NCBI GenBank assembly: GCA_910890315.1
Contig: CAJVGD010000018.1
Span: 372,001 to 436,000 of the forward strand
DNA: 64,000 nt
Source: Serendipita indica DSM 11827
Lineage: Eukaryota > Basidiomycota > Agaricomycetes > Sebacinales > Serendipitaceae
Direction of reading: 5' to 3'
Below, piece after piece: positions 2,571 through 59,795 of this stretch. Numbering within the stretch: position 1 is the first letter of the stretch; the number at the start of each line of letters is the position of its first letter. Under the pieces are notes generated by a model that saw nothing but the letters and a program-made list of their open reading frames with translations, was not told the DNA's origin and did no database searches. Made by a program: the position numbers and the translations under genes.

Positions 2571-3094
2571 ATGGCGTCGTATCGCAGCGAGAAGATGTAC
2601 AACGGAGATGAAAAGACTGTTATCGCATTTGCTATTGGGACGACCATGAGTACGTCCTTGAGACGGGCTGATGTAAAGCATCACCATTTCAGGCGCTGCG
2701 TCCTACTCGCATCTCTCGAAGCGAGCCCATCCGACCGTAGAGATGGCGAGTATAACCAAGTCCTGTCAACATGGGCTGACTGTCGTCAGGTAACCCAATG
2801 GCCTGGTCAACCAACCGCTAGCGGGTCCGCCAAAGGAAGGCCAGCTCATCGCAGAATACAGGTTTCTGAACGTTATGTAAGGTTCCAACACTTTTCCTGT
2901 ACGACGGTTCTCAGTGCGTAGCATGCGGCGAGGAGGCATTGAACTATCAGTCGGAAGATGATCATGAACAAATGGCCAAGTGGTTCAAGGTAAGTAAATA
3001 GGAAATGGATTTCTCTTCTAGCTCGTTTCCAGCTTCATATGCATCCCGAGTCTCTCAGGGATGACGCTCTCAACATCCCACCGCTCCCAACAGG
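2571..3094 (+). pseudogene. Truncated second copy of the HSPA12-like gene (5' end only)
   Basis: An ATG at 2571 opens MASYRSEKMYNGDEKTVIAF, the expected N-terminus with the first phosphate loop (IAFAIGTTMS). Further exons give SYSHL, then VTQWPGQPTASG, then CVACGEEALNYQSEDDHEQ up to 2990, matching the first exon at the left window edge, then LHMHPESLRDDALNIPPLPTG. The homology stops abruptly at about 3092-3096, where sequence of an F-box gene on the opposite strand begins. The intron after PTVEM would need a GC donor (GCGAGT, 44 nt), a sign of decay. Only about the first fifth of the protein is present, so this is a gene fragment. It lies head-to-tail with the full copy. Confidence 0.8.
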
Positions 3095-3299
3095 CCTTGC
3101 AGATCAAGCGATAGCTCGCAAACCGCTCTTGGACAAGTTTGAAAAGCGATAAATCCTCGATACTGACATTCCCATATCCGTGGGCTCCTGCACTTGGGTA
3201 TAATCCGTGGATGAATCTGCTGTGCGGTGCTGGTCGGACAAGCGGTTGATTGGAGAGGATGAGGATCTCATATACAAGCTCGTATGGAAGCCTCTGCAT
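3093..3299 (-). pseudogene. 5' fragment of an F-box-like gene, subgroup A
   Basis: The ATG at 3299 (an alternative lies at 3314) opens MQRLPYELVYEILILSNQPL, the F-box-like start shared with the three genes that follow. Similarity to those paralogues runs to LASYRLICKA-type sequence at about residue 69 and then ends in antisense Hsp70 sequence. The frame stays open for a further 25 codons to 3018, so a hybrid 98-residue reading frame exists by chance. All of the leucine-rich part is lost. It shares an upstream TGGTCGAGG element with its neighbours. Confidence 0.75.
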
Positions 3300-3614
3300 A
3301 TAAAACAGCTTCATGAGACACCATTACGTGCTTTCACGACGTACTTACCGGGTGGTCGAGGCGTAAAGGCAAATAACGAAGTGGCGCCGCCGCGGTCACG
3401 CAGGTTTACCTCTGTAAATTGGGTCTTATCCATAAATGAATATACACTCTATGTAATCTTATTGATCCGAGTAGAAACAAAATATCATCCTGACTGAAGA
3501 TGAATCTTGACTTGCTTCTTAGAGCCAAAGCTATGATGGCGAGGATGCAAGTAGCGAACACATGGACAATTGTTGCATATCATTAGTTAAAGCACCCATT
3601 CTTGCAACCATCGT

Positions 3615-4928
3615 CTACCAATACGAGTAGCTCAAGCCGACACGATGCTCCGACGCCTGCGCCAACAGTACTTGGTCGCAAGTGCGCGTCGCCGCCGATT
3701 CTTTGCTAATTCGAGGTGAAATAACAACTGGTAGACAGTAGGGCTCGACAACGATCGTCGTGACACCAAAGAACCGGACGTCTTCCTCGACGATTTGCAA
3801 GACGGCTGGCTTCATTTGTGGGGTATATGATCTCATCATTAGGACGACAGTGCTGAAATGAGCGAATTGATTGTCGTTGACCCTCCATGTATCAAAGTTT
3901 CGTAGGGCCTCTGTGTGATAGAGATAATCGATGATGAGAGTCTTGAGCGTCGGATGTGGGTCGCGCCGAAGAGCGGCACATGTGTAGTAGTCTGACACGT
4001 GAATCGTTTCGAGACGAGGACAGGCATGTGCCAGGTCGTGAATATGACTGAGTGGCGTGGGGTAATAGGATTGGTGTTGCAGAGCAGCATTGCTGGCCTG
4101 TTTGATCCGCAGGAACTGCAATACGTGACCATTTCTCCGGAGAAAGACGCTGGCATCGTCTAAAGATGTCTCCAAGAGGTGAGAAATCGAAAGAGTGCAC
4201 GATTCGAGCATCGGGGCAGTGATGAGCTTTAGATCAAAGTAATGCTTTGTCACAATCTCTAGTCTTCGAAGAGTAGGGATGTGAATCGTGGAGTGAATCT
4301 CAAGCGTCTCTGCTGAGATGATGAGGGTTTCGAGGGTAGGATTTGAATGGACAATGGTGGGAAGAAAGCTCGCCGGCCATCCGGCCCAAGAGGATACGAC
4401 TGCGAGATGCTCAACACCGACGAGCCAATCTGGAATCGCCGTCGGATACGTGCACGTGTCAAACATCTCGATCGTCGCAAGGTTGGGACAGAGATTCCGA
4501 ATGGAACATATCTGCGCGTGCTCTTCCGAATACGCAGGGTACTTGTCGGGCTTTGTCTCAGCAGGGTGAGGCGCGAACATGATTCTCCTAATATAGCCAA
4601 GCGGCTTGCTTCCCCATGGGCTGCTTTTGGTCCGGAGAAAGGCGTGAAAGGATGCGATGCATGCCACGGTAGGTGATAATATTACGTCGTGAAGCAAAAG
4701 GTCGAGGGCAATGGGCTCGATGGCTTTGCATATCAGGCGGTATTCCGCAAACCGCTCTTGTACGAGCCTCAGAGCAGGGAACCCCGTTCTATCCAACTTA
4801 TCGTGCCCATAGACGGATGTACGCGCGTTTAAACCGTGGAAGAATTCGCTACGAGCCTCGAGTCGAATGAGCGGTTGATTGGATAGGTGAAGGATCTCGC
4901 GTATAAGCTCGTATGGGAGGCTCTCCAT
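3615..4928 (-). CDS. F-box-like/LRR protein, subgroup A
   Basis: This intronless frame codes for 437 residues from ATG 4928. The F-box-like segment is at residues 4-20 (LPYELIREILHLSNQPL). It is followed by a conserved helix LVQERFAEYRLICKAIEPIALDLLLHDV and then irregular leucine-rich repeats, with conserved blocks LETLIISA, HDLAHACPRLETIHV and HPTLKTLIIDY. F-box proteins generally link substrates to the SKP1-CUL1 ubiquitin ligase; substrate recognition would lie in the leucine-rich part. Function here is by family only. It is second of four same-strand relatives in 3.1-8.4 kb. The frame is whole. Confidence 0.8.
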   Translation of the reverse strand: MESLPYELIREILHLSNQPLIRLEARSEFFHGLNARTSVYGHDKLDRTGFPALRLVQERFAEYRLICKAIEPIALDLLLHDVILSPTVACIASFHAFLRTKSSPWGSKPLGYIRRIMFAPHPAETKPDKYPAYSEEHAQICSIRNLCPNLATIEMFDTCTYPTAIPDWLVGVEHLAVVSSWAGWPASFLPTIVHSNPTLETLIISAETLEIHSTIHIPTLRRLEIVTKHYFDLKLITAPMLESCTLSISHLLETSLDDASVFLRRNGHVLQFLRIKQASNAALQHQSYYPTPLSHIHDLAHACPRLETIHVSDYYTCAALRRDPHPTLKTLIIDYLYHTEALRNFDTWRVNDNQFAHFSTVVLMMRSYTPQMKPAVLQIVEEDVRFFGVTTIVVEPYCLPVVISPRISKESAATRTCDQVLLAQASEHRVGLSYSYW

Positions 4929-5362: not shown

Positions 5363-6673
5363 TTACGTACCTAAAGTACTCGAGCGATGGGCAGACACCT
5401 CTGCGAGAGCTGGTGGATCGTGAACACACTTTGCAGCCAGCTCCTTGCTCGCACAAGGTGGAATAACCACCGGCAAGCAATGCGGCTTTGTGATGATTGA
5501 CGTAACAGCAAAGAGCTGGGGATCCTCCTCAATGGACTGCTTAATCTCCGCATCTGTCGTCCAGGGGTTTTGACCAGCGCCTAGTGCGAACACAACGGTG
5601 TCAAATTTAGCAAACTGGTTCTCGTTAATCTTCCAGTATCCTATCACCGACGAGAGATTCCATGCATACGCACGATCGAGGATGAGTGTCGTCAGTGTCG
5701 GGTGCGGTTCACGGTGTAGAGGAGCGCCTGTGTAAAAGGGGAGTACATGGATTATTTCGAGGCGTGGACATGCGTGTGCCAGGTCGTGAATGCGGTTTAG
5801 GGGGATTGGATCCAGATACCGCATGTCTTCGTAGTGATCTTCGGTGGTGAGCGCCTGCATGATGCGCAGAAAACGCAAACCACGACCGTTGCTTTTGAGA
5901 AATGCATGTGCATCGGTTAAGCTGGACTCCAAGAGGTGGGAAATGGTGAGAGTACAGGCTTCGAGTCGTGGGGCGGTGATAAAGTTGAGATTAAAGGCGT
6001 TTCCAGTATCGATTTCGAGCCGTTTGAGGTGGGAGAAATGAATCGGGGAATTGATAGCGCCAATATCTGCGGAGATGATGAGTGTCTCGAGGAGTGGGTG
6101 GGAATGAGGGATGCTTTGGAGATATGATGACCGATAGGAGCTGGGGGAAACTATTACGAGATGCTTCAACCCCATCAGCCAACCTGTAGGCATCTCAAAG
6201 TCCTTGTTTCTGTTGAAAATCTCGATTGCCTCAAGGTTGGGACAAAGAGTGCGGATGGTACGTAGTAGAGGGACATGGCTGTAATCAAGTATGGGGGTGT
6301 AATCGATGCCCACAGGGAGAGGCACAAGGAGGATTCGTCTGGTATAGGCTCCCAGCTGGCCTCGGTATCGTTTGGTTTGCAAAAAGGCGGAAAAGGAGGT
6401 GAGACATGCTGGAGTAGCACAGAGCACCACGTCCTGAAGCAAAAGCTTTAATGCTATGGGCGAGATGTCCTTGCAGATGAGGCGATAGGTTGCAAACTGC
6501 CTTTGAACTGGCCTTAGAATGTCATATTCCCTTCTTGGTACACCTCCAAGTCCGTAGTCTGTGACGTGCGCATGTAGACCGTGGTAGAATTCGTTGTGGG
6601 GTTCGCTTGGAACAAGAGGTTGGTTGGATAAGACGAGAATCTCGCGTATGAGCTCATATGGGAGTTTATCCAT
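5363..6673 (-). CDS. F-box-like/LRR protein, subgroup A
   Basis: This frame codes for 436 residues from ATG 6673. An in-frame extension upstream has no ATG, and the paralogues start at the same M-x-x-LPYEL position. The F-box-like part is MDKLPYELIREILVLSNQPL. It is followed by the HGLHAHV and FATYRLICKDISPIALKLLLQDV blocks and by leucine-rich repeats with HDLAHACPRLEIIHV and HPTLTTLILDRAY. It is intronless and uninterrupted, and probably the closest intact relative of the LTR-split gene at 6868-8394. An upstream TGGTCGAGG lies at 6718-6726. Confidence 0.8.
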   Translation of the reverse strand: MDKLPYELIREILVLSNQPLVPSEPHNEFYHGLHAHVTDYGLGGVPRREYDILRPVQRQFATYRLICKDISPIALKLLLQDVVLCATPACLTSFSAFLQTKRYRGQLGAYTRRILLVPLPVGIDYTPILDYSHVPLLRTIRTLCPNLEAIEIFNRNKDFEMPTGWLMGLKHLVIVSPSSYRSSYLQSIPHSHPLLETLIISADIGAINSPIHFSHLKRLEIDTGNAFNLNFITAPRLEACTLTISHLLESSLTDAHAFLKSNGRGLRFLRIMQALTTEDHYEDMRYLDPIPLNRIHDLAHACPRLEIIHVLPFYTGAPLHREPHPTLTTLILDRAYAWNLSSVIGYWKINENQFAKFDTVVFALGAGQNPWTTDAEIKQSIEEDPQLFAVTSIITKPHCLPVVIPPCASKELAAKCVHDPPALAEVSAHRSSTLGT

Positions 6674-6867: not shown

Positions 6868-8394
6868 TCAAAGTAAGTTGGAGATATTCGACCGACGGGC
6901 AGACACTTTTGCAAGCGTTAACGGATCACGAGCGCACTTTGCAGCCAGATCCTTGGTTGCACAAGGAGGAATAATCACTGGCGAACAATGTGGTTGTGTG
7001 ATGATACAAGTGACAGCAAACAGCCGAGGGTCCGTTTGGATGAAGCGCAAAATGTCCGCCTTTGTGGCCAAAGGGGATTCATATAAACCCAGGGCAAGAA
7101 CGACGGTATCAAAGTTGGCAAAATCGTCGTCGTTGATCTTCCAATGATCGAGAACTTGCGAGAGATTTGTGACAAAGGTACGGTCGAGGATGAGTGTCTT
7201 GAGCGTTGGATGCGGATTACGATGGAGGGTGGTCTCTGTGTAATAGATTAGTAGATGAATTGCTTCGAGGCGCGGACATAGATGAACCAGGTCGTGAATA
7301 TAGTTTAGAGGAAACGCATCCAGCTCTCTCCTGATTAGGCGCAAGAAGCGTAAACCGTGAGCATTCTTTTTGAGAAATGCACACGCATTGGCCATGATCG
7401 TGTTCAAGGACGAGACGGTGAGTGTGCATGCCTCGAGTTGTGGTGCGGTGATGAGTGTTACGGACCAGCCCGCAGGACCCACGTCATCTGGATGACTCGT
7501 ATATGTCAGTATGAGTCACGAAGAACGAGGATAGTCACTTACCTGACTCACGATGCGCGGCCGGCCGTGGCCAGCTTTGGCCACTACGAGCGGGAGCTTG
7601 TATGTGGACGGCTGCGCACGACTCGCCCGTATCAAGAGTCATCTCTATAGGTGACTCGTTATATAGATGACATGATATAAGATGTCGGATCGCTGTCTCG
7701 TCTCGGACTCCTCTTGTCCCTTCCTCCAACTCCCGCCAACCCTATGCCCTCCAACGTAGTCCCGCTACCGACTACTGGTTCCGAAATAATGCTTACATAA
7801 GCTTATCGAAAGGTATAAAAGGACCCGATTTTCCATGTAACATTTGCTAGTCTGATATCTGACTCCCTCGCCCAGTTTACGCGTCATATTACAGTAACTA
7901 AGTACCTCACGTCGAGGAATAATCTAAAGTAAACCATTGCTAGACCTGTCCTGACCCTACTCGGGACTCCGCCAGTCAGAAAGACGTGGGTATCGTCTTT
8001 AACAATGAGGGTCAAGTCGATTAATTCGCCCGCATTAATCTCGAGCCTCTTGAGAGTGGGGTGTAAAGTGGGGAGCTCCCGACTATACGGAAATGATGAG
8101 CGTTTCCAGGTGTGGATTCGCGTCAATGGTGCTTTGGAGAAGAGGTGTCGACATGGATATGCCTCTGGAAAAGATTGCGAGATGTTTGAGTCGTGTGAGC
8201 CAACCTGTGGACAAATCGTCGTCTTTGTGTCTGCTTCGAGTGGAAATCTCGATTGCTGTGAGGTTGGCGGATACATAGCCTGTGACGTGTGCGTGTAGGC
8301 CGTGGAAGAATTTGTTATGTGGCTCGAGTTGCCTGAGGAGCTGATTGGAGAGGAAAAGAATCTCGCGTATGAGTTCGTATGGGAGCTTCTGCAT
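6868..8394 (-). pseudogene. F-box-like gene, subgroup A, split by a solo LTR
   Basis: The 5' part starts at ATG 8394 (MQKLPYELIREILFLSNQLL, then HGLHAHVTGYV). It then jumps directly to ANLTAIEIST, so about 85 residues present in the relatives, including the YRLICK block, are deleted. The frame also changes after NPHLETLIIS. At the codons for DLTLI the 549-bp LTR at 7456-8004 interrupts the gene. The 3' part resumes at LITAPQLEACTLTV and runs to the stop at 6868, with HDLVHLCPRLEAIHL and HPTLKTLILDRTF preserved. The gene therefore has an internal deletion and an insertion and is unlikely to make a working F-box protein. Confidence 0.85.
7456..8004 (+). mobile_element. Solo LTR of an LTR retrotransposon, with 5-bp target duplication
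   Basis: The 549-bp element begins TGTTACGG and ends CTTTAACA, so it has TG...CA ends inside a 5-bp inverted TGTTA/TAACA. It is flanked by a perfect 5-bp target duplication ATGAG (7451-7455 and 8005-8009). The flanks belong to one F-box gene, which fixes both ends. A TATAAAA box at 7814-7820 suggests plus orientation. No internal region is present, so this is the single repeat left by recombination between two LTRs. The superfamily (Ty3 or Ty1 type) cannot be told from the LTR alone. The perfect target duplication fits a fairly recent insertion. Confidence 0.85.
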
Positions 8395-8429
8395 TTACTA
8401 TACAATGTTTGAATGTGCTTTGGTCGAGG

Positions 8430-17025: not shown

Positions 17026-17651
17026 ATGGCCAAGTCTGCGAATATCCTCTTTGACGAGATGTTTACCATCCTCAACGTGGATGGTAATAGATACGAGCGA
17101 GGTCTGTCCTTTTATCATCAGATTTCCACGGCAAACTAAAATCTTGACTCCGCGCTTTGCGCCACTGTGCTTTGGCCGCGCAAAAACTATAGTCTCGCGT
17201 CTGCAAGCACGATCGTCAAATCTAGGAATGGAACTCTCGCTCGACTTTAACCACGAATTGTATCCACTTCGCCCAAATGAGACGATCACGCTCGTCCTTG
17301 CCTCGTCATTGCAAACCACAGCCAGTACAGCGACGACAGGTGCAGCAGCAGGAGCGAGTGGACCCGCAGAGGACAAAATTGACCGCGACACTTGGCGGCC
17401 GACAATTGGGAGGAGCAAAGGGCTTGATGCTGATTACGACTATGTAATGTACGGCAAAGTGTACAAGTTCGACGAGGGGGAAGGAACAACAGTGTGAGTG
17501 AGGTTTAGTTAGCTGTAGGCATGGCTTATGTCGAGATAGCACGGCCTACATCTCGTACGGTGGCCTCCTGATGGCGTTATCGGGCAATTATCGACACATG
17601 TCGGGCATTGTCCTAGGGGAAAACGTCTATCTTCTATTGCGAAAACGGTAG
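17026..17651 (+). CDS. RPB8: RNA polymerases I, II and III subunit Rpb8
   Basis: Three exons (17026-17101, 17193-17493, 17540-17651) give 162 residues with consistent phases. The start ANILFDEMFTILNVDGNRYERVSRL and the end VYKFDEG..VTAYISYGGLLMALSGNYRHM..ENVYLLLRKR are signature Rpb8 sequences. The subunit is an OB-fold protein shared by all three nuclear RNA polymerases. An Ala/Gly-rich insert of about 15 residues sits in the middle loop, where family members vary. Length is near the usual 145-150 plus this insert. The gene is tail-to-tail with the M16 peptidase gene, 55 bp between stops. Confidence 0.95.
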
Positions 17652-28093: not shown

Positions 28094-28404
28094 CTGAATA
28101 TCATAGTGTATGGGATACAGGTGCAAAGTAGGATCTGCTCCCACTCGTTGATTGTTTATTTATACCTCCATTTATGCGCTCTAAAGAACTCTGGATACCG
28201 TGACCGAATAGTAGTCACCGTCTTTGTTATTATTCGTCTTTGTAGTCGCGGCCCCTAGGTCGGCGGTTATTTTTCCCACCCAACGGCGGGTATGTGACTA
28301 TTATCAACTCCATAATTTTCAAACTTCGTGAGTGACTGCCTTTGGTCAGACAAAACACTCCGGCGAACGAGAAACGAGCGGTGTTCTTCGTGCAGCAGAT
28401 GGGA

Positions 28405-37012: not shown

Positions 37013-38290
37013 ATGCAGGTTTCTTCACCTGGAGTGGGTGAATCCAGGGTTTGTGAGATGCGACTTGATCCCAGCCTCGACATTGAAAAGCGGGAAAGAT
37101 CAATGAAATTGCAGGAGGAGAATATAGATTATCTTTCTCTTCTTCCATCAGAGATTTGGCGACAAATCCTCTTTGGGGTCTACCCGCCAAATCCATTCTT
37201 CTCAAAACCAGGTAAGACTCGAGATAGAGCCCACTGGAGTCGATTACTCGGCATTCAAGCTCGACGTGGACGGCTCAGGTTTATCTGCAAACGGCTTGAA
37301 CCAATCGCATTCGAGGTGCTGATTACTGAAGTGGCACTAAAGTACACGAAACTCCGTCTCAACAGCTTTTTTGACGCACTCAGCGTCAACTACGGCTCCC
37401 CTTGCACTACACGAGCTTCCATCTTCTTCCCCTCTCCCCGCCTAAGGGATGGACTCAAGCAAGAAATAATCAACTATAACCTACTTTTTCAACTACCCAA
37501 ATACTGTCCCCGGCTCAAATACGTTGTCTTGGACGGATTCATTGGACATAATACGGAACGGTCGACTAGCTGGATCAAAGACGTCGAGTCGATCATGATT
37601 AACACCAGACTTGTGAAATGTGAGGCTCTAGCTGAGCTCTCTGCGCGGAATCCGTGTCTCGGTAGGCTATGTCTCTACGGTACTGGCGGACTCCACTTCC
37701 AGAAACCAGTAGTCTTCCCCAATCTCACGCATCTTTCTTTGGATGACCCAAGTGTTGGGAATCTGGCATATATCTCGCTTCCAAGCCTTTGTTCCCTCAG
37801 CATTGCCATCGACAACCTGGTCATTGCCGAGTTAGACGCCTTTATTCAAGCAAATGGCCAGACTATAGTATACCTCAATATCAGAGTCAACTACCAGGAC
37901 CTCATCGTTTACTCTGTTGAAGATACAGGGGGATATATAAACGTCATCCGCCATTGCCCTCGCCTCGAGGTGCTCGAAATGGATGGTGCTCTTGTCTACA
38001 CTGACATACCGTCATTTCGTCATCCATTTATTCGCACCATAGTGCTTCATGTGTACGCTGCAAATAACATGGTAGCAGCCCTCGAATGGTGGGGATTTGA
38101 CGCCAAGGGGAACCCACCTCCGAATGTCACAAGAGTAGTAATCAAACCACACGGCTATCACGAGCTCACAGATAATGAAATGGAGCAGGTTATGCTGTCA
38201 GAAGTTAGACTCGTATGCAAGCAAGAGATAGCCGCTATGTTCGTGGTCGAACGCGATCCTCTTGAAGCAATTAATCCTGAGACGGACTGA
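37013..38290 (+). CDS. F-box-like/LRR protein, subgroup B
   Basis: This frame is intronless. ATG 37013 would give 425 residues; ATG 37103, directly before LQEENIDYLSLLPSEIWRQ, gives 395 and fits the paralogues better. The F-box-like segment is DYLSLLPSEIWRQILFGVYPP. It is followed by LRFICKRLEPIAFEVLITEV, LPKYCPRLKYVVLDG, FPNLTHLSLDD, NVIRHCPRLEVLEMDG and ALEWWGFDAKG. The DNA upstream of 37103 is the conserved leader discussed in findings. The frame is whole. Confidence 0.8.
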   Translation: MQVSSPGVGESRVCEMRLDPSLDIEKRERSMKLQEENIDYLSLLPSEIWRQILFGVYPPNPFFSKPGKTRDRAHWSRLLGIQARRGRLRFICKRLEPIAFEVLITEVALKYTKLRLNSFFDALSVNYGSPCTTRASIFFPSPRLRDGLKQEIINYNLLFQLPKYCPRLKYVVLDGFIGHNTERSTSWIKDVESIMINTRLVKCEALAELSARNPCLGRLCLYGTGGLHFQKPVVFPNLTHLSLDDPSVGNLAYISLPSLCSLSIAIDNLVIAELDAFIQANGQTIVYLNIRVNYQDLIVYSVEDTGGYINVIRHCPRLEVLEMDGALVYTDIPSFRHPFIRTIVLHVYAANNMVAALEWWGFDAKGNPPPNVTRVVIKPHGYHELTDNEMEQVMLSEVRLVCKQEIAAMFVVERDPLEAINPETD

Positions 38291-44984: not shown

Positions 44985-46184
44985 CTATATTGAGATGTGA
45001 ATTCCCATAAACTGTTCGTAGCGGACAGGCTTCATCGTAAAAGTAATCCCAAGTCGTGTAAAGTGAGCGTCGACTGCCGAAAGCGCAAGATTTCTCACGC
45101 CGTGTTCAGAGAGTCTACCTATCCTCATCTTGATTACAAGAGTAGTGACGGTGGTCGGCATCTCACTCTTTGAACCGAACCCCCAGTAACAAAGTGCTGG
45201 GATAATGTCTCGCTTTGGATTGTGGAAGCAGAGAACGAGCGTATGGATAGAAAGCAGCGCAGGTTGCGGATGCTCGCTGGAGATAAACTGGCCCTCCACT
45301 TCGAGCACTTTGAGCCGAGGGCACAGGCGAAGGACATTCGCCATCCCCTTGACAAGTGGGCCGACATTGGTCAGACCTCTAGATAGGATGCCGCTCCTGA
45401 GCGCCAGGTGTTCCAAATGTGGACCATTCGCTTCGAAGAGCGCCAGATGCTCGACAAGATTGACTGGGTCGAAAATGGTATTTATCTGGTGTATCTTTGA
45501 GACAGAGAGGAATCCGAACCCCTTGACGAGACTACATCGAAGATCAAGGCACGTCAGATCCGCAACGGTCACTGGTTTGACCAAGTTAAACGTCAAAGTG
45601 TCGAGGATCAACCTACGGAGGCCATGGACCTGAGAAGATATCCTATGTAGATTTCCCGACTCTATATGGTGCGTTCGGATCATGAGCGTCTCCACTCCTT
45701 TGATCCAGTCAACGTGCATCTGAAAAGTATGATCAAAGACCACGTTGAGCACCATCAATCTTATCTTGGGACAATATTTATGCAACTGTTGAAGATAGTC
45801 GACGTCGACCTTGCCTATCTTGGATGCGTTGCCTCGACAGTCGAGCTGGATGAAAGCGCTAGCAGTGTAGACAAACGGGGACCCGCCAAAGCCAGTTATA
45901 CATCTGATCGTATCAAATAAACTCTGCAAACACCAGGTCGAAGGATCGATGGCGATTTCCTTGAACAAGACCTCGACAGCAATCGGCTCCAATCGTTTGC
46001 AGATCAGCCGGAGTTTCGCACGCTGAGATTGGAGATTGAAGACCATACGTGGATAGTCAAGGTCGGCGTCTAGGCTCTCGCACACCACGCGTAAGATGGG
46101 TGGGTACACCTCGGAGAGGATCTGGCGCCAGATCTCCTGAGGAAGAAGAGAAAGGTAATGTAAAGGCTCCTCTGTGGCTTCCAT
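44985..46184 (-). CDS. F-box-like/LRR protein, subgroup B
   Basis: This frame codes for 399 residues from ATG 46184 (MEATEEPLHYLSLLPQEIWR). The in-frame sequence further upstream lacks an ATG and belongs to the subgroup B leader. The F-box-like part is at residues 9-29. It is followed by AKLRLICKRLEPIAVEVLFKEI, LHKYCPKIRLMVLNV, VADLTCLDLRCS, VLRLCPRLKVLEVEG and LCYWGFGSK. Its C-terminal third is similar to the fragment fused upstream at 50271-49950. The frame is whole and intronless. Confidence 0.8.
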   Translation of the reverse strand: MEATEEPLHYLSLLPQEIWRQILSEVYPPILRVVCESLDADLDYPRMVFNLQSQRAKLRLICKRLEPIAVEVLFKEIAIDPSTWCLQSLFDTIRCITGFGGSPFVYTASAFIQLDCRGNASKIGKVDVDYLQQLHKYCPKIRLMVLNVVFDHTFQMHVDWIKGVETLMIRTHHIESGNLHRISSQVHGLRRLILDTLTFNLVKPVTVADLTCLDLRCSLVKGFGFLSVSKIHQINTIFDPVNLVEHLALFEANGPHLEHLALRSGILSRGLTNVGPLVKGMANVLRLCPRLKVLEVEGQFISSEHPQPALLSIHTLVLCFHNPKRDIIPALCYWGFGSKSEMPTTVTTLVIKMRIGRLSEHGVRNLALSAVDAHFTRLGITFTMKPVRYEQFMGIHISI

Positions 46185-48660: not shown

Positions 48661-50271
48661 CTACAGTCCAGTATCATCTTCGTAAACATATTTCGCGGCA
48701 AAGGTGATACCCTGTTGTACACATAGAGATTTGATTTCCGAAAGCGACGCCATAGGATTGCGACCGGGATATAATGTTCGGTCTATTTTGAGTAGAACAG
48801 TTTTGAAGGTGGCGAGTCCATGGCCGCCCACGTCAAACCCCCACCAACGGAGAGCTTTGGTCGTACTTAGCTCGCTTTTGCAGCGCAGGACTAGAGTATG
48901 AGCGGAAAGTGAGAACTTTTGTGGGCGACCGTTGACGAGGTGATCATCCACCTCAAGGACTTGCAGACGAGGACTGTGGCTGAGTATATCCCTCATAACC
49001 CTCATCTTCGGCTCGATGCTGCCCGAAATGCCGGGAATGACAGAGCGAGCCTCTAGGTATTCCAGGCGTTGGCCATTGGCCTTGAAGAATGCCGTGGCAG
49101 TGGTGTGATTGAGCTTCTCGAGGGCAACGCTTAGCCAACGAATGTTCGGAAAAGAGACGGTCGATATTTTGCTAAAGTCCGGTATGTTGAGATATAGTCT
49201 CGTGAGATGGGCAAAGGTCGTCGACTCCTGGAGATCGCGAACAACCGCATCAAGAACGAGTGCCCTAAGAGATAAGTTATTGTTAGAAACATCCCGAAGC
49301 CCATTCGAACTAGCCATAATGTTATGAATCGCGAGAGTCTCGACCCCAACGACCCAGTCAAACGACCACGCAGAGGTAAATGCGTCCAATCCATAAACGA
49401 TCAGCAACTTGACCGCAGGTAGGTACTCGTGTATTCTACGAAGAAACCGATGGTCTCTTATTATGTCCCTGTCTGGCTTCCCGTGACAAGGGGAGAACCA
49501 GAGGAGAGCGCTGGTTGTGCGAGAGGTAGGTATATTCCCCCCACGATTCCCCGCTGTGACCGCATCGAAGAATTTACGAAGCCACCGTGTCGATGACCGA
49601 AGTACGACCTCGTTGAATAAGCCCTCAAAAGCGATGGGCTCTAGCGCTTTGCAGATGAGTCTCAGTCGTGCACGTCGAGCCTGTCTACGAAATATCTTTT
49701 TGAGATACTCTTCATCGAGGCGGGTACTTGGATGCTCGGGCAATACGTGTAAGATTGGCGGGTATGCCTTGAAGAGGATTTGTTGCCAGACCTCCTGAGG
49801 AAGAAGGGAGAGGTATTCTATGGTTGAGATTTGAGTCCATTGGTATCGCCCTATTCTTTTCAAAGACGAGGGCGGCTCCAAACTGTTTTTGACAAACCTT
49901 GCACCCGTCCATGTCGCCGAGAGTCCACAGTTGCTTGTCGTTTGTGAACCTAGGACATTACAGTTGATGATTCCTACATAATATGGCTGCCTTTGATCGA
50001 CCTCCACGCCGCTGTGAGAGAAATAGCCCCGGGCTCCCTCATCCGAGTATCGCTCCACAGCATCTTTATGGAGTCCCATATGCGGGTACACTCGGATGAT
50101 GATGACGAGTTTGACACTCGGAGGCGGATCGGTATGTGAGGTAAATCCCCAGTAGTCAAGCGCAGCGTCTATGTATTCGACGTCGTAATAGTGTAGAATT
50201 AGCGTATGAGCAGAGAGTGGAGTGGTTTGTGGCTGCCTGTCATCGACGAGTTCGCCATCCACTTCGAGCAC
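48661..50271 (-). CDS. F-box-like/LRR gene (subgroup B) fused behind a paralogue's C-terminal fragment
   Basis: This uninterrupted frame of 536 codons has two parts. Codons 1 to about 105 are the C-terminal end of a subgroup B paralogue (LEVDGELVDDRQPQTTPLSAHTL, ALDYWGFTSHTD). From about codon 150 comes a full F-box-like gene (IEYLSLLPQEVWQQILFKAYPP, RLRLICKALEPIAFEGLFNEV, FPNIRWLSVAL, SPRLQVLEVDD, ALRWWGF). The ATG expected just before the F-box, at about 49841, is out of frame with it. The first in-frame ATG is at 50079, inside the fragment, and would give 472 residues. A functional fusion or a remnant are both possible. Confidence 0.6.
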   Translation of the reverse strand: MLEVDGELVDDRQPQTTPLSAHTLILHYYDVEYIDAALDYWGFTSHTDPPPSVKLVIIIRVYPHMGLHKDAVERYSDEGARGYFSHSGVEVDQRQPYYVGIINCNVLGSQTTSNCGLSATWTGARFVKNSLEPPSSLKRIGRYQWTQISTIEYLSLLPQEVWQQILFKAYPPILHVLPEHPSTRLDEEYLKKIFRRQARRARLRLICKALEPIAFEGLFNEVVLRSSTRWLRKFFDAVTAGNRGGNIPTSRTTSALLWFSPCHGKPDRDIIRDHRFLRRIHEYLPAVKLLIVYGLDAFTSAWSFDWVVGVETLAIHNIMASSNGLRDVSNNNLSLRALVLDAVVRDLQESTTFAHLTRLYLNIPDFSKISTVSFPNIRWLSVALEKLNHTTATAFFKANGQRLEYLEARSVIPGISGSIEPKMRVMRDILSHSPRLQVLEVDDHLVNGRPQKFSLSAHTLVLRCKSELSTTKALRWWGFDVGGHGLATFKTVLLKIDRTLYPGRNPMASLSEIKSLCVQQGITFAAKYVYEDDTGL

Positions 50272-50288
50272 TTTGAGTCGAATGAACT

Positions 50289-50657
50289 GGCCAGCTGGCT
50301 ATTTAAGACTGTGAAAGCAAAACTAACCCGATCTGTTCGGTGTGAAACCAGAGATGGATGGGATCCAAGCGGAAAGTAAGACAATTTCCCAGTCAACAAA
50401 TTCAATACCCCTCAGCGGACTTCAGAATAGCGTGGTAAGGCAAGCAAGATTGGCGTTATGTTGGCGGTATGCATAGTGTTTGAGGATAGATTCCATATCC
50501 CTCTGTTTGAGGTCCTCATTCGCTTTCATAACACCATGCATGTCGCCCATTTGAGATAGTGAATAACCTCTTTATTGCTTGGTTCGGGACAATTGTGATC
50601 ACGAAGGGAGTAACATATTCTACTATCCACCTTTATCATATGCATCATGATACTCAG
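50289..50657. other. Spacer between two minus-strand F-box loci
   Basis: No gene was recognised. Similarity to subgroup B genes stops at about 50288, which is the breakpoint of the truncated paralogue fused downstream. Confidence 0.45.
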
Positions 50658-51824
50658 TCAAGGAATATGCTCTACAACAAACCTAGCACCTAAGTCTGAA
50701 CAGCGTGACTCTAATTGGGACAGCATGATATATGCCACGGAATCTTTATCAAAGTCTTTGTACCCGCGCATTCTGAGGTTGACCTTCTTGAAGCCGACAG
50801 GGACGTGACCTTCCGAGTCAAACACCCACCAACGAAGAGCTTTATCCGCGCTATACACGTCATCAGACTTTATGATTAGCGTACTAGCGGGTAGCGTGAA
50901 CAGGCGCGGCTGCTTATCGTCGATGATGATGGCATCCACGTTCAGCACGCTAAGCCGGGGACATAGATTGAGAATATCCGCCATTAATCTTGCGTGCTCT
51001 GTTGCTCTGAAAGGTTCGTAGGTAATGCCCTTCCTGAGCTCCAAGTAAGTTAAATTCGGACCATTCGTCGTAAAGAATCTTCGACAATCGGCGGGGTCGT
51101 CCAAGCTGATGGCAATGCTGAGCCAGTGAATACGTGGAAAGATGAAATTTGAAAGTCCGCTGATGTTTATAGTTGTGAGATAGACATTTGTGACGCATGA
51201 GAATGTCACCGGCTCCATGAGCATGAGATCAATGACCTCGAGAACCAGTGTACCGAGAATAGGATTGTGACTAGAGAGGTCCTGGAGAAATTTCGAGTTT
51301 ACAGAGGGGCAGAAGTGAATAAACCATTCAATGCCGACTACCCACTCGATGCGCCGATCCACACTATCTGCAATGCTTCCAGATACGAGCATTTGCTTGA
51401 TCCGAGGACAATATTCTCGCAATTTGCAAAGCAAGTTGTATGTATTCTCCTCGGGTCTTCCACTCCAGGAAGTAGAGAGCCAAATAAGGGCGCCAGTGGT
51501 ACGGGAAAGAGGCAGGCATGTCTTGGTATTTCCCGCCTCGATCGTATCAATCAATCGCTTCAATCTTTGTGTCCTACCCGACACGGCAATCTCATGGAAT
51601 AAGACCTCGAGGGCGATAGGCTCGAATTTTTTGCAGACGAGTCGGAGTGATGCTCGCCGATTTTGTATGTGAAAAGCGGAATTCTGATACGTTCTAGCGA
51701 GGGTAGAGTTTGAGTCCTCCGAAAGCAAAGGTAGAATCGGTGGATAGACGTCGAAGAGAATGTAGCGCCAGATCTCCTCAGGTAAAAGCGATAAGTACAG
51801 TACACTCGTTTCTTTCGTGGACAT
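50658..51824 (-). CDS. F-box-like/LRR protein, subgroup B
   Basis: This frame codes for 388 residues from ATG 51824 (MSTKETSVLYLSLLPEEIWR). It is followed by YILFDVYPPILPL, RASLRLVCKKFEPIALEVLFHEI, CLPLSRTTGALIWL, LCKLREYCPRIKQMLVSG, FPRIHWLSIAIS and LNLCPRLSVLNVDA. It is the closest paralogue of the gene at 26939-28093 and shares its upstream region in inverted orientation. In-frame codons upstream of the ATG belong to the subgroup B leader. The frame is whole and intronless. Confidence 0.8.
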   Translation of the reverse strand: MSTKETSVLYLSLLPEEIWRYILFDVYPPILPLLSEDSNSTLARTYQNSAFHIQNRRASLRLVCKKFEPIALEVLFHEIAVSGRTQRLKRLIDTIEAGNTKTCLPLSRTTGALIWLSTSWSGRPEENTYNLLCKLREYCPRIKQMLVSGSIADSVDRRIEWVVGIEWFIHFCPSVNSKFLQDLSSHNPILGTLVLEVIDLMLMEPVTFSCVTNVYLTTINISGLSNFIFPRIHWLSIAISLDDPADCRRFFTTNGPNLTYLELRKGITYEPFRATEHARLMADILNLCPRLSVLNVDAIIIDDKQPRLFTLPASTLIIKSDDVYSADKALRWWVFDSEGHVPVGFKKVNLRMRGYKDFDKDSVAYIMLSQLESRCSDLGARFVVEHIP

Positions 51825-52429
51825 TAGTGTTACTGTACGCGCGTCAAAGTCTAGGTCAGGACCAAGATGTCTGTCGCAAACCTTGGACCCGTCAATGTCC
51901 AATGGAGATCTCTGGCGATGACAATACAGCCCTCGTTTGGCGAATAAATCGATATTGAAATAAACGATGCGACGTTGTGAACTGTCGTGATGCACATCTG
52001 CAGAACCAACGCCCATAGTACACCATCTTCTCCAAACGAACGCTTACCCGCTCTTATTCAATCGACACAGGAGCTCAGATTATTCTCCCTGTTGCGGTGT
52101 AATCACCCGTGGAGCGTCTTCAACGCAACGCAGAGTCACCTGCGCGTTCATCGTCACAGGATCCGCGGTAGTAAAGGATATGTATTGAGGATGAATGCTC
52201 AGCTATTTCTTCTTTCCCAGTTCGTGGCTAGGCTAGACCAGTGGAGCGAAACCGTTCCCTCCGTTTGGTCGATTACACTTCGAGGAGTGCCTTGAAGATT
52301 CCAGTATGATAACGGATGGAGTCCTTGTTAGATATGAAATACATCTAAGTATCGTTATGATTGACACTGTAGCTGATAAGCGGCAGGAAGGATTGGCCGT
52401 ACCGGTGAGTGAGGGTCACGTTGTTCTGA
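51825..52429. other. Divergent promoter region, copied at 26.3-26.9 kb
   Basis: This spacer lies between the F-box-like gene (-) and the short F-box gene (+). It aligns with the reverse complement of about 26350-26930, for example at GCGGAGCGTCTTCAA-like and GCTATTTCTTCT blocks. Some frames in it also look conserved (VTGS motif), so more exons of the short F-box gene may lie here; I could not assemble them. Confidence 0.5.
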
Positions 52430-53079
52430 ATGGCTGTAAAACAACTGAAGGCAATGCGGGCCGTGCGTCTTCCTCAGACGTCCTCATCTCCTCGTTCTAC
52501 ATTAGGTACAGTAACAATCCGTTATATACCAGTCATCCCGGTCGTCAGATATGACCAGATACACCGAATGTCGAACTCTGTAATCTTCACCGGACACGTA
52601 CAAAGTAGACTCCAACCGGAGAAAAGTGTGAAGAGCGCGACATCAGTATCCACGGCCTCTTGTGTTTACAACGCTACCAACCCGAGGTACGAGATATAAG
52701 GGTCCTCGGAGATTTCTAACCTGTTTCTAGCAGACGGTGTGGTCTTGATGCTGTGACCAATACTTGGAACGAGGAACAGGGTGCCCTTGAATTGACTCCA
52801 GGCAGTCGCCGTCTCTCTCCCGCTATGGACCTCGCCACTCGCCGCGCACAAAACAAGCACGTGCCGGCAGTTTGTCTTCCAATTGAGCTACTGGAACGGA
52901 TATTCTCGTTTACAGACATCTCATACGTCTTCCGTGCCTCGGCTGTATGCCATTGGTGGCGTATAGCTGCGGTTTCGCAGTGGAATATGTCTATAGGCGA
53001 GGTATGGCGGTTGTCAGTGGATGGAGCATACTCCTCTAGTCGCTTCTATAATGCGAATTTGGCAGAGAACGACGAGTGA
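52430..53079 (+). CDS. Short canonical F-box protein, subgroup E
   Basis: There are two exons, 52430-52686 and 52731-53079, with a 44-nt intron, giving 201 residues. Exon 1 begins MAVKQLKAMRAVRLPQTSSS and ends SVKSATSVSTASCVYNATNP. Exon 2 starts RRCGLDAVTNTWNEEQ and holds the F-box LPIELLERIFSFTDISYVFR followed by ASAVCHWWRIAAV. It ends soon after WRLSVDG, without leucine-rich repeats. The layout matches the gene at 34072, which supports the splice. The N-terminal region of about 115 residues is a conserved unknown. Further upstream exons cannot be excluded. Confidence 0.6.
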
Positions 53080-53899: not shown

Positions 53900-55684
53900 A
53901 TGATTCCCACTCCCGAGGGACGGTACGTTGGCATTACGGTTCGATGTATACGATTTGTTTAACGATACCAGTATAGTTGTCGCTAGAGATATTGTTTATC
54001 TTCTGGAGACTGTATTCAGTGACATGTCCCGGTACGTTTCTTCGGTAGCCTTCTCGCCCATTTCTGGGCTGACGTAGGCCCATGAGCAGTCGGGAGCTAA
54101 TAGTCGAGTCTGCAATAAATAAGCAGGCATCTATTCAATGTCTTGACGCTGCGAACAATGCGATGACCCTCATTCCACAAGCTGTCCGCAGCAGCCAGGC
54201 GTGAACGCAACGCACTCGTGTTGGCAGCCTCTCTCCCTCAGGAAATTCTTGCACAGATATTCATACATAACGATCTATCGTCAACTCTGGTGGCCAGTGC
54301 AGTATGTCACCGCTGGCGAGTGGCAGCAATCTCGACGCGCTGGCTATGGACATGCGTCGACTTGCAGAAAGTCCACCTATCGGACGAAATGACCTCCATG
54401 GTGCGCGAGAGATGTGGAAATGCCTTGATTGACATACGCTTTCGACCTTGCTTTGAAGAAGGCCGAATATCGAATGGTCGGATCCCAGCGTCTCTTGCCA
54501 GTCTACTTCCGAGAGCACGCTCAATCAGCAACGTCGCGCTCGATGAATGGATGATACGATATCCCAAGGCACTCCAACACCATGCCTAGAATCGTGCCAC
54601 CTCCTCATCATCAACGGCCCGCTTGACTCGTTTCTCAATCAGCACCCTCTTCTCTCTGACCTTTATCTCGAAGGTACTAGAGTGCGAGAATCTTCAGGCT
54701 TTTTCCAGATCTTGAGGTTATCAGAGGCCACAGAGGCACTCCTCAGGCTGCGAGTGCTCCAATTGCATAACATCCGAATTAGTGCCATTACAACGCAGAG
54801 AATAGTCGAGTTGACACCAAGAGTTGAAGAACTGACTATCTCAAGCTGTGGTTCTTTGGAACTTGGCTATCATACGCCAACCGACTCTTCGCAATATCTG
54901 AAACGGCTACGCCTCCTTTCTTTGCTAAACTGCTCCGAAGCTTTTACTGCCTCATTTTTGCACCGCGAAGGACCCATAAAAGTGCAGCCAGGCACATCCG
55001 TTCAGCTCGTCCTGGACAAGACTCCATTCAATTGGCCGATGGAGAGGTGCCGATCCGAGCACGCGATTACACATCCTCAATAAAGGAAAAGTATTCGTTT
55101 ACGAGCATGAGCAATCGCTAACTCGGATTATTCATACCCAAGCCTCGCCTGGGACATCCACACCAGAGACGCATGGGCAAGTATTACGACTCACTGCATT
55201 CCCACAGTATGTATGGACCTCAATGATCAGATCTCTTGTGATACATAGACTCGTTCGCATCAACTCGCGGGACCTTGACACCTTCACCCATCTTCAGGAA
55301 CTTTATATCGACTTTGAACCTGCTCCAGTTGAAACTGTGGACCCAGGCCTATCGATTCTTTTCAACCAAGACCTCGCCGTCTCCTGTCCACGGCTTAGCC
55401 ACATCTCAATACAACTCATCAAGCCCCCGCCACATACCGTAGTACAAAATTACGAACCCGCAAATGATCTCGCAGTTTTCCTCGATGTGTGGATTGAGCT
55501 GAATCAGACCGTTTTCGCGTCGATTCATATTCACGACGAGATTCGGCCTTCGAGATGGACGGTATATATGGACTTTTTTCGCGGGCTCACAGGAGAGTTT
55601 GAAGTATACCGTAAATGCAAGGATCGGGTTGTGCCCCAGTTTCCTGTACCCACGCAGTTCCTTCCCGATGGTTCGAGGATATAA
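53900..55684 (+). pseudogene. F-box gene, subgroup E, frameshifted copy of 57972-59795
   Basis: The ATG at 53900 opens MIPTPEGR, a tiny exon with a GTACGT donor as in the intact copy. The second exon ends SRELIVESAINKQASIQCLD-like sequence. The frame then changes before KLSAAARRERNALVLAA, where the F-box LPQEILAQIFIHNDLSSTLV and VCHRWRVAA follow. It changes again near 54560 (DEWMIRYPKA versus CLESCHLL) and near 55080 (after HPQ, before KGKVFVYEHEQSLTRI). The C-terminal part to 55684 (IHRLVRINSRDLDTF, DPGLSILFN, PSRWTVYMDFFRGLTGEF) is readable. With three slips it is probably a pseudogene. Confidence 0.8.
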
Positions 55685-56234: not shown

Positions 56235-57413
56235 TCATACAATAAGTTCAATTTTAAAGACTGCCGACTTGGTATCACATTGAACTATGATTTCTTCCAG
56301 GATGGCAGCCTCGACGTCGTCTCCCATAAGTTGGCCGATATCACCGTAGAAATTGATGACGACAGTGTGAAATCCGATCTCCTCGTGCCTCCATTCCTGG
56401 AATCCCCATTGGTACAAAGCGGTCAAGATAGTGGGCACATCGTGACCTTGAAGTATAAGGGTATGGAGAGATGGATGCCGATCCCTAGGCTGCCCAGTGT
56501 CGGGGAGCCTGCTATCAATCTCGAGAACATCAAGATGATGGCATTTGTAGGCAGCATTTATTATTGACTTGACGTCAGGCTCTTCCCATGCGCCAATATC
56601 GTCCACAAGGTCAAGTCTGACCCCAAGATACCGGAGGTGCTGGCCATTTTGTTCTATAAAAGTGGCTGATTCGTTGATATCGAGGCAATCGATGGAGAAG
56701 TTTAGCCAGTGGAGAGATGGAAGGGAAAGAAGGGATAGCTTTTCGGGGATGGAGACGTCCAAATATAGTGATGTGAGATTTGGAAAGATGAGTGGCTCCA
56801 CGATTCCGAGTGACGTGACGCGCATGAATGAGTGACTGAGCAGGGGAGAGGGTAGCTCCTTCCAGTCCACTATAGGGCCGAAGAGTATCAACGTCTCGAC
56901 AGCGACGATCCAGTCTAAGGGTAGGCGCGTATAAGGACGAAACGGCCCATTGACTAGCATAAGGTTGATTCGTGGGCAGTACTGATGAAGTAGATGGAGT
57001 CTGACGTAGTCATTGCGCATGCTTTCGGTCATCGTTCTCTCGTAACCTCTGAGATCAACGACAATGGATCTCGTATACACTCCAGGAGAATACCCAGCAT
57101 TGCATTGGGCATCTATTCCGCTAAAAAACTTTTGTATTCCTCGTGTAGTCCCGCTGAGGATTACTTCAGAGTAAAGGAGTTCAACTGCGATTGGCTGCAG
57201 AGCCTTACAGATGACCAGCAGTTCTATACGGCATTTCTGTGCGGCAAACACCCTTTCTTTCAGCCACTTTAGCTGCATGTATTCCCCAATATTCTCCGTA
57301 AAGGTAGATAGGAGCGGTGGATATACCTCAAGAAGGATTTGCCGCCATAACTCCTTGGGGAGTAGACATAGGTAGTCAACAGTATTTTCTGGATTATTGG
57401 CGGTGCTCATCAT
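56235..57413 (-). CDS. F-box-like/LRR protein, subgroup B
   Basis: This frame codes for 392 residues from ATG 57413 (MMSTANNPENTVDYLCLLPK; a second ATG follows at once). The F-box-like part is LPKELWRQILLEVYPPLL. It is followed by CRIELLVICKALQPIAVELLYSEV, LHQYCPRINLMLVNG, FPNLTSLYLDV, LSLPSLHWLNFSI, HLDVLEIDS and ALYQWGFQE. In-frame codons upstream lack an ATG and lie in the subgroup B leader. The frame is whole and intronless. Confidence 0.8.
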   Translation of the reverse strand: MMSTANNPENTVDYLCLLPKELWRQILLEVYPPLLSTFTENIGEYMQLKWLKERVFAAQKCRIELLVICKALQPIAVELLYSEVILSGTTRGIQKFFSGIDAQCNAGYSPGVYTRSIVVDLRGYERTMTESMRNDYVRLHLLHQYCPRINLMLVNGPFRPYTRLPLDWIVAVETLILFGPIVDWKELPSPLLSHSFMRVTSLGIVEPLIFPNLTSLYLDVSIPEKLSLLSLPSLHWLNFSIDCLDINESATFIEQNGQHLRYLGVRLDLVDDIGAWEEPDVKSIINAAYKCHHLDVLEIDSRLPDTGQPRDRHPSLHTLILQGHDVPTILTALYQWGFQEWRHEEIGFHTVVINFYGDIGQLMGDDVEAAILEEIIVQCDTKSAVFKIELIV

Positions 57414-57971
57414 GAGTTCACCAATATCCACGTTGGAAGAGAACGCGATGTACAACCTTGCACCCAATCCATCGCCAGATCAAGCAAGTCTGTGATCAGA
57501 TATCGGTTCATTCCAACTAATCCATTCGTGAAAAGTGGCTTGGATACGCAGAGCGCTCAATGCAATGTCTTTTGGGCCGCTTACGGCAACGGAGGATGTA
57601 CCTGATTCTGTTTTCCGAGCCCAGTACACAGCATAGCCCATCGCCACGATTGTGCGGTGGAACAAATCCTCCAGCACGGTTTGACAACATTCGCTTCTCG
57701 AGATGCTATTGTGTGAATAAAGGTATTCAGCCACTGCATCGTACTTCAGGCTCGAGTTTCGGAGCCTGTGCTTTCTCAAATAGGTCTCCAACCTCCTACA
57801 CGGACATCTTTCGCCAGACAGATGGATTGAGTCCGTCCACTGGCTTATACTATTACTCGCCCTGCGCCACGACACTGCCTGAGCGCCATCTGCGCATAGC
57901 TTGGCTTAGGGCGAAGATAAAGAATCCATCAGCTTCAGTCGACATCTTCAACTCTTCATACAACCCTGAAT
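57414..57971. other. Divergent intergenic region
   Basis: The interval lies between the starts of a subgroup B F-box gene (-) and the subgroup E F-box gene (+). The subgroup B leader is at about 57420-57470. A minus-strand frame of 131 codons (57875-57480) has no recognisable product and is left out. Confidence 0.4.
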
Positions 57972-59795
57972 ATGATTCCGACTCCTGAAGGTCGGTAAGT
58001 TGATTTTACGGTTCAAACAGTGGAAGAGATCTAACTCTGCTCAGAGCAGCTGTTGCGAGGGATATCGCGTCCCTTATGGAAACGGTTTTTAGCAACATGG
58101 CTAGGTGCGTAGATCGTGACGGAGCTTCCTTCTCTGGACTCACGCGCGTACTGGCGCAGTCGCGAGCTGATCATCCAATCTGCGACAAACAAACAAACAT
58201 CGATCCAATGTCTCGACGCTGCGAACGACGCAATGGCCGTCGCGTTTGGTAAACTGTCCGCGGCAATGAAGCGGGAGCGTAACGCACTCATCCCGGCGGC
58301 TGCTCTTCCACCTGAGCTTCTCACGCGAATATTTGGACTGAACGATCTAAGATCAACGGTCGTAGCCACCGCAGTTTGCCATCGCTGGCGGGTTACGGCA
58401 ATCTCAGCGAGCTGGCTATGGACATACGTCGACTTGGACACATCCAACATGTCGGAGGGCATGGCTTCGCTCATTTGTGAGAGAAGTAGAGACATGCCAA
58501 TCGACCTACACCTTCGACTCATCATTCATCGACACTGGCCATCAAATAGTGGACTCCCAATATCTCTCACAGGTTTACTCCCAAGGGTTCGCTCAATAAG
58601 CAACCTTGCAGTAGACGATTGGATGTTACAGTACATGGGTTATACTCCCACTCCACGACTCGAGTCGTGTCATCTTCTCCTCGGCGGTCGTCCCCTTCAT
58701 TCGTTCCTCAAACAGCATACTTGTCTCTCCCACCTTTCTCTCGAGTTTCCTGGGACGCAGGAGACCTCTGGTGCTTTCCATATTCTGAGGTTGTCGGATG
58801 CCAAAGATACGCTTCTCGGGCTTCGCGTCCTCCATTTGCATAATGTTCGAATCAGCGCCAGTGAGCTCCACATGATTGTCGAGTTGACACCCAATATCGA
58901 AGAGCTGGCTGTCAACGACTGCATATCCTCGGAATCCGATTACCATATGCCACTCGACGCGTCTCACTGCTTAAGACGCTTGCGGATTCTGTCCTTATTG
59001 CGATGCAGCGCAGTGTTTGCTGCGTCGTTTTTACACAATCAGGGACCTATCAAAGTGAGAAGTAACACCCACGTCCAACTCGGTATAGACACATACAAAA
59101 CCCCATCGACTTGGCCGTTACAACGAGAAGCGCATCCGAATACACGGTTACATATTCTTGAAAAGGGAAAGGTATTCTTTTATGAAACTGACCAATCGCT
59201 AACTCGGATTGTGTACACCAAAGTATCTCCAATTGCATCCTTCCCCGTCGTTAACGGGCAACTCGTACGGCTGGTTGCTTTTCCAGAGTACATAGATCCC
59301 TCTACGATTGAGATGCTTGCGATCCATCGACTCGTACGCGTCAACTCGGAGAGCCTATACACGCTCACCCATCTCAAAGAGCTTCATATCGACTTTCAGC
59401 CCGTTTCAGTGAATGAGCCGGACCCAGGATTATCGATCATTCTCAACCATGGTCTTGCCGCCAGCTGCCCTCAGCTTCATCACATAATGATACGGTTTCT
59501 CAAATCGCATGTACATGATGTTACACAGGAGCAGAAACCAGAGGATGATCTCAGCGTCTTCCTCGACGCTTGGTTGGAGTTGCATCGGCGGGTGTTCCCG
59601 TCGGTCCATATCCACGACCGGATTCAACCATCGAGATGGAACGAATACGTAGATGTCTTTCGTGGACTTACCGGAGAGTTTATTGTCGATGATAGGCGCC
59701 CGACATGCACCTTGCCAAAGTTCCCCTCGCTCACACAATTTATTCCGGATGGTTCAAGGAGGCAACCTTTGTCATTTAGGAATGACTATGTATAG
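57972..59795 (+). CDS. Canonical F-box protein, subgroup E, full length
   Basis: There are three exons, 57972-57994 (only 23 nt, MIPTPEG), 58045-58104 and 58160-59795, with introns of 50 and 55 nt, giving 572 residues. The phases agree, and the decayed neighbour at 53900 keeps the same exon pattern. The second exon codes AAVARDIASLMETVFSNMA. The F-box is LPPELLTRIFGLNDLRSTVV followed by ATAVCHRWRVTAIS. A long leucine-rich C-terminal part follows (LRVLHLHNVRISASEL, IEELAVNDC, LRILSLLRCS, LKELHIDFQP, VFRGLTGEF). This is the classic F-box/LRR layout for substrate recruitment to an SCF ligase; the substrate is unknown. Confidence 0.8.

Follow-up and report, generated by a model that had tools for sequence, protein, structure and literature searches.

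A gene cluster of Serendipita indica with two families of probable F-box/leucine-rich repeat adaptors, one of them with an F-box split by a long loop

The genome of Serendipita indica DSM 11827 (24.7 Mb in 55 contigs) contains, within a 64,000-nt stretch of contig 18 (bases 372001–436000, referred to here as the window and used for all coordinates given without a contig number), 20 F-box-type loci between positions 3093 and 59792. Four loci are of type A, seven of type B, three of type C, two of type D and four of type E, and one type B fragment is present in addition (50026–50280, minus strand). Types A–D belong together and type E stands apart, and we consider it quite likely that the intact proteins of both families are adaptors of the SCF (Skp1–cullin–F-box) type, whose genes would have arisen by old local duplication, are still being lost and would serve settled substrates. 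A role as SCF adaptors had been proposed in an initial annotation of this DNA, and four lines of evidence agree with it: (i) the two halves of an F-box can be recognized in A–D, (ii) A–D proteins match F-box models once a loop is excised, (iii) a profile of A–D matches leucine-rich repeat (LRR) structures and (iv) the type E protein E4 matches SKP2.

The loci were recovered by a six-frame motif scan, by frame reading and by tblastn searches of the window with 13 open proteins, and the matches are far beyond chance (pairwise E down to 1e-154). The motif scan and tblastn found all 20 loci and the B fragment again where the initial annotation had placed them. The reading frame is open through the gene in 13 loci; the remaining seven (A1, A4, B2, C1, E1, E2 and E3) are truncated or shifted, in agreement with the earlier estimate that about a third are broken. 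Types A, B, C and D match one another, with E-values between subgroups down to 1e-19, and the 12 intact A–D members align with ten invariant columns. In a maximum likelihood tree of 15 proteins, made up of these 12 and three members from outside the window, each of the four groups is well separated (support of 100/100 for A, 98/98 for B, 96/93 for C and 100/99 for D). No such similarity was found between E and A–D by tblastn within the window, where the best E-value is 0.12. Judged by these comparisons, A–D form one family in four groups, and E constitutes a distinct F-box/LRR family that resembles SKP2. The five subgroups first described are thus retained as far as the A–D groups of the tree are concerned, but they belong to two families; a view of A–D as unrelated subgroups was rejected on the matches between them.

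The F-box of the A–D proteins is interrupted by a loop, which lies between helix 1 (LPxELWxxIL) and helices 2–3 (LRLICKxLEPIAxExLF). From the LP to the IC/VC motif there are 46–62 residues in the 15 A–D proteins, compared with 23–27 in 11 canonical F-boxes from this genome, and it is because of this wider separation of its two halves that Pfam misses the A–D F-box. When the N-terminal parts of A–D were aligned with the 11 canonical F-boxes by hhalign, both halves were paired in order and in register with a score of 24.7 (E 5e-4); the highest score among 20 column-shuffled controls was 13.45. Excision of the loop from 13 of the 15 full-length members (all but genes A2 and A3) gave matches at E≤1 to PF00646 in nine and to PF12937 in eight, the best E-values being 1.5e-5 and 1.1e-6, respectively. 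Among five loop-excised constructs, three matched across the join, compared with none of five in which the second half had been shuffled; one of these shuffled-half controls matched helix 1 of the F-box alone (E 0.11).

The LRR part of the A–D proteins is seen in profile searches of known structures. Within positions 124–280, the A–D profile matches internalin B (E 5.6e-5), TLR3 (1.9e-4) and ANP32A (0.018), and the F-box protein COI1 appears among the structure matches only at E 0.14. The matches to internalin and Toll-like receptors appear to reflect the common LRR pattern and nothing more specific. For type E, residues 18–273 of E4 match SKP2 chains over both the F-box and the LRRs (E 1.2e-4), and the F-boxes of E1 (27.8 bits) and E4 (29.0 bits) exceed the curated Pfam cut-off of 24.3 bits. 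We read both families as FBXL-type F-box/LRR proteins.

Several results weigh against this reading and against a simple history of the cluster. As they stand, the A–D proteins remain below the Pfam F-box cut-off: PF00646 is matched in two of 12, with a best E-value of 0.019 and scores of 13.9 and 15.0 bits against a cut-off of 20.5. Despite its E-value, the hhalign alignment is assigned a probability of only 31%. With the loop excised, four of 13 members give no PF00646 match even at E≤1; among the five constructs, those of D1 and A2 give no F-box match and only that of C3 passes the curated cut-off. A search of the PDB with the loop-excised A–D profile found no F-box chain. Pfam LRR models fall below their cut-offs for single A–D proteins, as do the LRR matches of E4. 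Finally, the three outside members are scattered among the window groups in the tree, which carries a warning of long branches, and the cluster may therefore have a less simple history than a single local radiation. Taken on the matches obtained, the case for an F-box appears good for types B and C, whereas for types A and D it rests on family membership. The shuffled controls and the loop-excised matches led us to reject the alternative that A–D are LRR proteins devoid of an F-box, a rejection that is least sure for A and D.

The duplicates within the cluster are old. Comparison of the window DNA with itself yields 18 matches, none above 82% identity (at most 81.7%, over 71 bases), and thus no recent duplicates. 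The longest match, 71% over 2.2 kb, is inverted and pairs 25953–28137 with 50614–52819; the E3/E4 and D1/D2 matches are 66% identical. We also note that the 2.2-kb inverted duplicate comprises the B1/B6 genes and about 1 kb of upstream DNA and ends just before E2, and that B1 has no type E partner. Synonymous divergence (dS) is about 0.63 for the closest intact pair; the other pairs mostly approach saturation, B5/B6, B3/B4 and C2/C3 being near or at it. These values do not bear out the rapid turnover proposed for these genes in the initial annotation; its suggestion of birth and death is in keeping with the local duplication visible in the self-matches and with the seven broken loci.

Ratios of nonsynonymous to synonymous divergence (dN/dS) were calculated by the Nei–Gojobori method with bootstrap bounds, for intact genes only and as pairwise averages. 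They are 0.23 (0.12–0.33) for A2/A3, 0.26 (0.19–0.35) for D1/D2 and 0.45 (0.34–0.61) for B1/B6. The tested intact pairs evolve under purifying selection on average. For the LRR part of these three closest intact pairs the ratio is 0.24–0.44, and dN exceeds dS in none of 111 forty-codon windows drawn from the same pairs, contrary to the positive selection that had been anticipated for the leucine-rich region. The loop of B1/B6 taken by itself has a dN/dS of 1.0, a value based on just 23 codons. Identity between pairs averages 0.54 in helix 1, 0.51 in helices 2–3, 0.21 in the LRR part and 0.14 in the loop; the F-box helices are indeed more conserved than the LRRs, as had been expected, but it is the loop inside the F-box that changes fastest.

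The observed homology, domain architecture, clustering, decay and average selection would fit a scheme in which Skp1 binding and substrate degradation are predicted from homology. The F-box of an intact protein would bind Skp1, Skp1 would bind cullin, and the LRR region would bind a substrate, which would then be ubiquitylated by an SCF ligase with exchangeable adaptors. Cullin genes are present in the genome. The cluster would have grown through old local duplications, at least one of them inverted, and copies are still disappearing, as the seven broken loci show. Several of the copies probably have settled, distinct substrates and would not constitute an arms-race repertoire, because old copies have been kept with low dN/dS.

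How unusual is this cluster within the genome? Single-protein searches, in which very distant relatives may be missed, identify 23 A–D pieces in the genome, 17 of them in the window (16 loci and the B fragment). Outside, full-length frames are found on contig 10 (1206904–1208067) and contig 11 (263151–264281 and 891478–892521), and a frame-changed copy on contig 10 (1129461–1130535). Beside the gene at 263 kb of contig 11 lie a 26-residue fragment (264441–264518) and a 5′ remnant (about 262.6–262.9 kb), both rechecked and the latter confirmed. Contig 46 also bears an A–D match (56–337) with its own 26-residue piece; these were counted as an allele of contig 11 and not as loci. The stretches 1–1824 of contig 46 and 263945–265763 of contig 11, which bear the A–D family gene, are 97.5% identical, and contig 46 is probably the other haplotype of the 263–265 kb stretch of contig 11. 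A scan with one protein found no stray relatives from other species in viral contigs. The relatives of type E are located mainly at 477–486 kb of contig 18.

Clustering of F-box genes and long F-box loops are both general in this genome. By counts that are lower bounds, as 150 of 372 candidates were scored, 65 of 150 Pfam F-box matches lie within 5 kb of another; when positions were drawn at random 1000 times, the number averaged 8.8 and never exceeded 24. By Pfam F-box matches alone, no 57-kb stretch holds more than eight, and the 150 scored PF12937 matches include none of the 16 A–D loci of the window. After removal of 29 of the 150 matches, which cover the F-box model incompletely, 40 of the 121 two-ended matches were found to have eight or more extra residues, the largest number being 26. 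In all eight long-loop F-boxes that were fetched, chosen for their long inserts, the insert precedes the VCxxW-type motif, as it does in A–D. They differ from A–D in that the W of VCxxW is kept (8 of 8) and Pfam still detects them, while A–D have ICKxLEP and mostly longer loops. Since long inserts are this common, the A–D loop is the far end of a continuum of F-box loops in the genome. As clustering is general too, the cluster belongs to a known kind, of which it is a dense and cryptic case, with A–D, an old family, mostly confined to a single locus. Counting by Pfam can overlook an entire F-box family here, so that the set of SCF adaptors would be undercounted. A compact locus in which intact and dead copies stand together, with a few unlinked relatives, also offers a setting in which to study how F-box genes are gained and lost and how their specificity arises. 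Literature searches gave no title describing such a cluster among those listed, a partial set that is no proof of absence.

A less likely account is genomic drift, with near-neutral gain and loss in an over-large F-box superfamily leaving most copies with little function. The genome has no fewer than 150 Pfam F-box matches in its 24.7 Mb, and they are markedly clustered; this would be expected from such a process, as would the proportion of broken loci, and a lineage-specific subset of plant F-box genes with relaxed selection and many pseudogenes is reported (PMC3030570). The B1/B6 ratio (0.34–0.61) is compatible with drift, but the upper bounds of dN/dS for the A and D pairs (0.33 and 0.35) are below the value of about 0.5 that we would expect for a pair in which one copy had long been free of constraint.

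It is unlikely that the cluster is a diversifying recognition repertoire for non-self, incompatibility or anti-parasite functions, with positively selected LRR faces and copies that vary between isolates. The clustering, the decay of seven of 20 loci and the low identity of the LRR part across the family would suit such a repertoire, and nematode and plant F-box expansions have been proposed as innate immune elements (PMC12680543). The LRR ratios, however, are below 0.5, none of the windows in the three pairs has dN above dS, and recent duplicates are lacking. The allelic pair on contigs 46 and 11 differs by one synonymous and two nonsynonymous codons in 136, too few to weigh on either side. 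No title among those listed, again a partial set, joins F-box proteins with incompatibility. Nothing was found that points to the non-self or incompatibility repertoire put forward in the initial annotation, and neither pairwise selection nor the age of the duplicates favors it.

We regard as improbable a further proposal, that B and E genes form divergent pairs with a common promoter: head-to-head junctions at B2–E1, B6–E2 and B7–E4 make up three of the four divergent junctions, an arrangement reached in 0.5–1.7% of label shuffles (1.4% for any pair of types), but the pattern was noticed after the fact, B6 is intact yet E2 is broken, only B7–E4 is intact on both sides, and single-protein searches find no A–D neighbor beside the E relatives at 477–486 kb of the contig. 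The only blastn matches between the pairs are coding ends and a single stretch of 32 bases immediately ahead of B2 and B6, and duplicated promoters were rejected on this result.

The co-expansion of Skp1 and F-box genes is a question known mainly from nematodes and plants. Four Skp1-domain matches lie within 7.3 kb on contig 1 (1077441–1084719), two on each strand. Two Skp1 C-terminal pieces among these four matches are near-identical in their core. We give little credence to the idea that the loop, which lies inside the F-box beside the Skp1-binding helices, and not the LRR face, is the variable element through which Skp1 and the long-loop F-boxes have co-diversified into private pairings. 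If it were true, the Skp1 copy used would differ between adaptors, and the fungus would parallel the expansion of Skp1-related genes in nematodes. If co-expansion of Skp1 is real, a fungus could serve to test the question raised in the passages of PMC12680543.

The individual loci are in very different states of preservation. All four A loci are on the minus strand. A1 (3093–3299) is a broken 5′ fragment with 51–52% amino acid identity to A2 and A3 over the first 68–69 residues only. A2 (3618–4928) is intact, with an open frame of 437 aa from a Met, and is 49% identical to A3 (5366–6673), an intact gene of 436 aa whose match to the Pfam AtMIF1 LRR model scores 24.0 bits against a cut-off of 26.9. 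A4 (6880–8394) is broken: tblastn recovers it in pieces at 8275–8394, 8004–8274 and 6880–7485, and an internal stretch is gone. Beside the A cluster there is a direct repeat of 190 bases, 73% identical, at 46–235 and 2900–3088.

The type C gene C1 (15436–16515, minus strand) is broken by several frame changes. C2 (30961–32145) and C3 (32820–34007), both on the plus strand, are intact and 31% identical, and the loop-excised F-box of C3 scores 23.1 bits against the Pfam cut-off of 20.5. Both type D genes, D1 (24638–25858, 407 aa) and D2 (28569–29783, 405 aa), are intact, on the plus strand and 52% identical.

Among the type B loci, B1 (26939–28090, plus strand, 384 aa) is intact and 60% identical to B6 (50661–51827, minus strand), which is likewise intact, as are B3 (37094–38287, plus strand), B4 (44988–46184, minus strand, 399 aa) and B7 (56238–57410, minus strand, 391 aa). 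B2 (35283–36430, plus strand) is broken by an in-frame stop within its F-box and by frame changes; the genome search also reports one TAG at B2. B5 (48664–49836, minus strand) is an open type B frame that lacks the Met found 13 residues before the LP in B1, B3, B4 and B6, and its nearest upstream Met is 92 residues before the LP. The C-terminal B fragment at 50026–50280 resembles residues 290–365 of B4 and has an open frame in common with B5: one uninterrupted reading frame, 48664–50298, spans both the fragment and the complete B5 frame. B5 may be a fusion with the upstream B fragment, or else a failing gene.

Two of the type E loci are 5′ parts only, each with a canonical F-box that matches PF12937: E1 (34258–34407, minus strand), within an open frame at 34075–34500, is 52% identical to E4 over 50 aa only, and E2 (52834–52977, plus strand) is 48% identical to E4 over 48 aa. 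E3 (54170–55678, plus strand) is broken into three successive frames that are 55–58% identical to E4, and E4 itself (58230–59792, plus strand) is the intact canonical, SKP2-like F-box/LRR gene. Four E loci, including the two 5′ parts, are thus in accord with the initial annotation, but the additional orphan part that it listed as a fifth was not found.

Assembly errors were rejected as the sole origin of the frame breaks. Homopolymer runs were sought at nine listed break places, and none of at least eight A or T, or at least seven C or G, begins less than 61 bases from any of them. A shorter A-run adjoins one of the frame changes in B2, a gene that also has its in-frame stop.

Other genes are interspersed with the F-box loci. 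Part of an HscB-like gene (29899–30321, minus strand) lies between F-box genes, and exons of the RNA polymerase subunit Rpb8 are found at 17192–17645 (plus strand). Each of these has one locus in the genome, so the description of the intervening genes as single-copy housekeeping genes holds for the two that were checked. Also between the loci are RasGAP, His_Phos_1 (with a sub-threshold 6PF2K match), M16 peptidase, DENN and tRNA-Gln genes. At the end of the window, two facing frames (62725–63378, plus strand, and 63421–63999, minus strand) have 51% mutual identity and no Pfam match, and an alginate-lyase-like frame (61726–62703) adjoins them.

Comparison with known systems places the putative adaptors closest to SKP2 and the FBXL proteins, which E4 matches over the F-box and LRRs together and which A–D resemble in having the F-box halves in order with LRR-like sequence after them. 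Relative to the canonical F-boxes of the genome, however, helix 1 of A–D is separated from helices 2–3 by about 19–39 additional residues. Birth and death of F-box genes with many pseudogenes is described for plants (PMC3030570), and species-specific tandem duplication of F-box genes for Caenorhabditis (PMC8665587); the cluster described here differs from both expansions in that the retained copies are old and two families are mixed. F-box ranks with the InterPro domains most strongly enriched in the Rhizoctonia solani pangenome, and the passages of that report (PMC8992008) describe no cluster of this kind. The passages of PMC9610886, PMC8893723 and PMC12774589 add nothing decisive. A further parallel is provided by the KSS antidotes of Caenorhabditis tropicalis, which the passages of PMC12680543 describe as F-box/solenoid proteins with an F-box that is not conserved in sequence; the genome that encodes them also has numerous Skp1-related genes. 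The KSS genes are called rapidly evolving in the same passages, whereas the genes of the S. indica window are under purifying selection on average.

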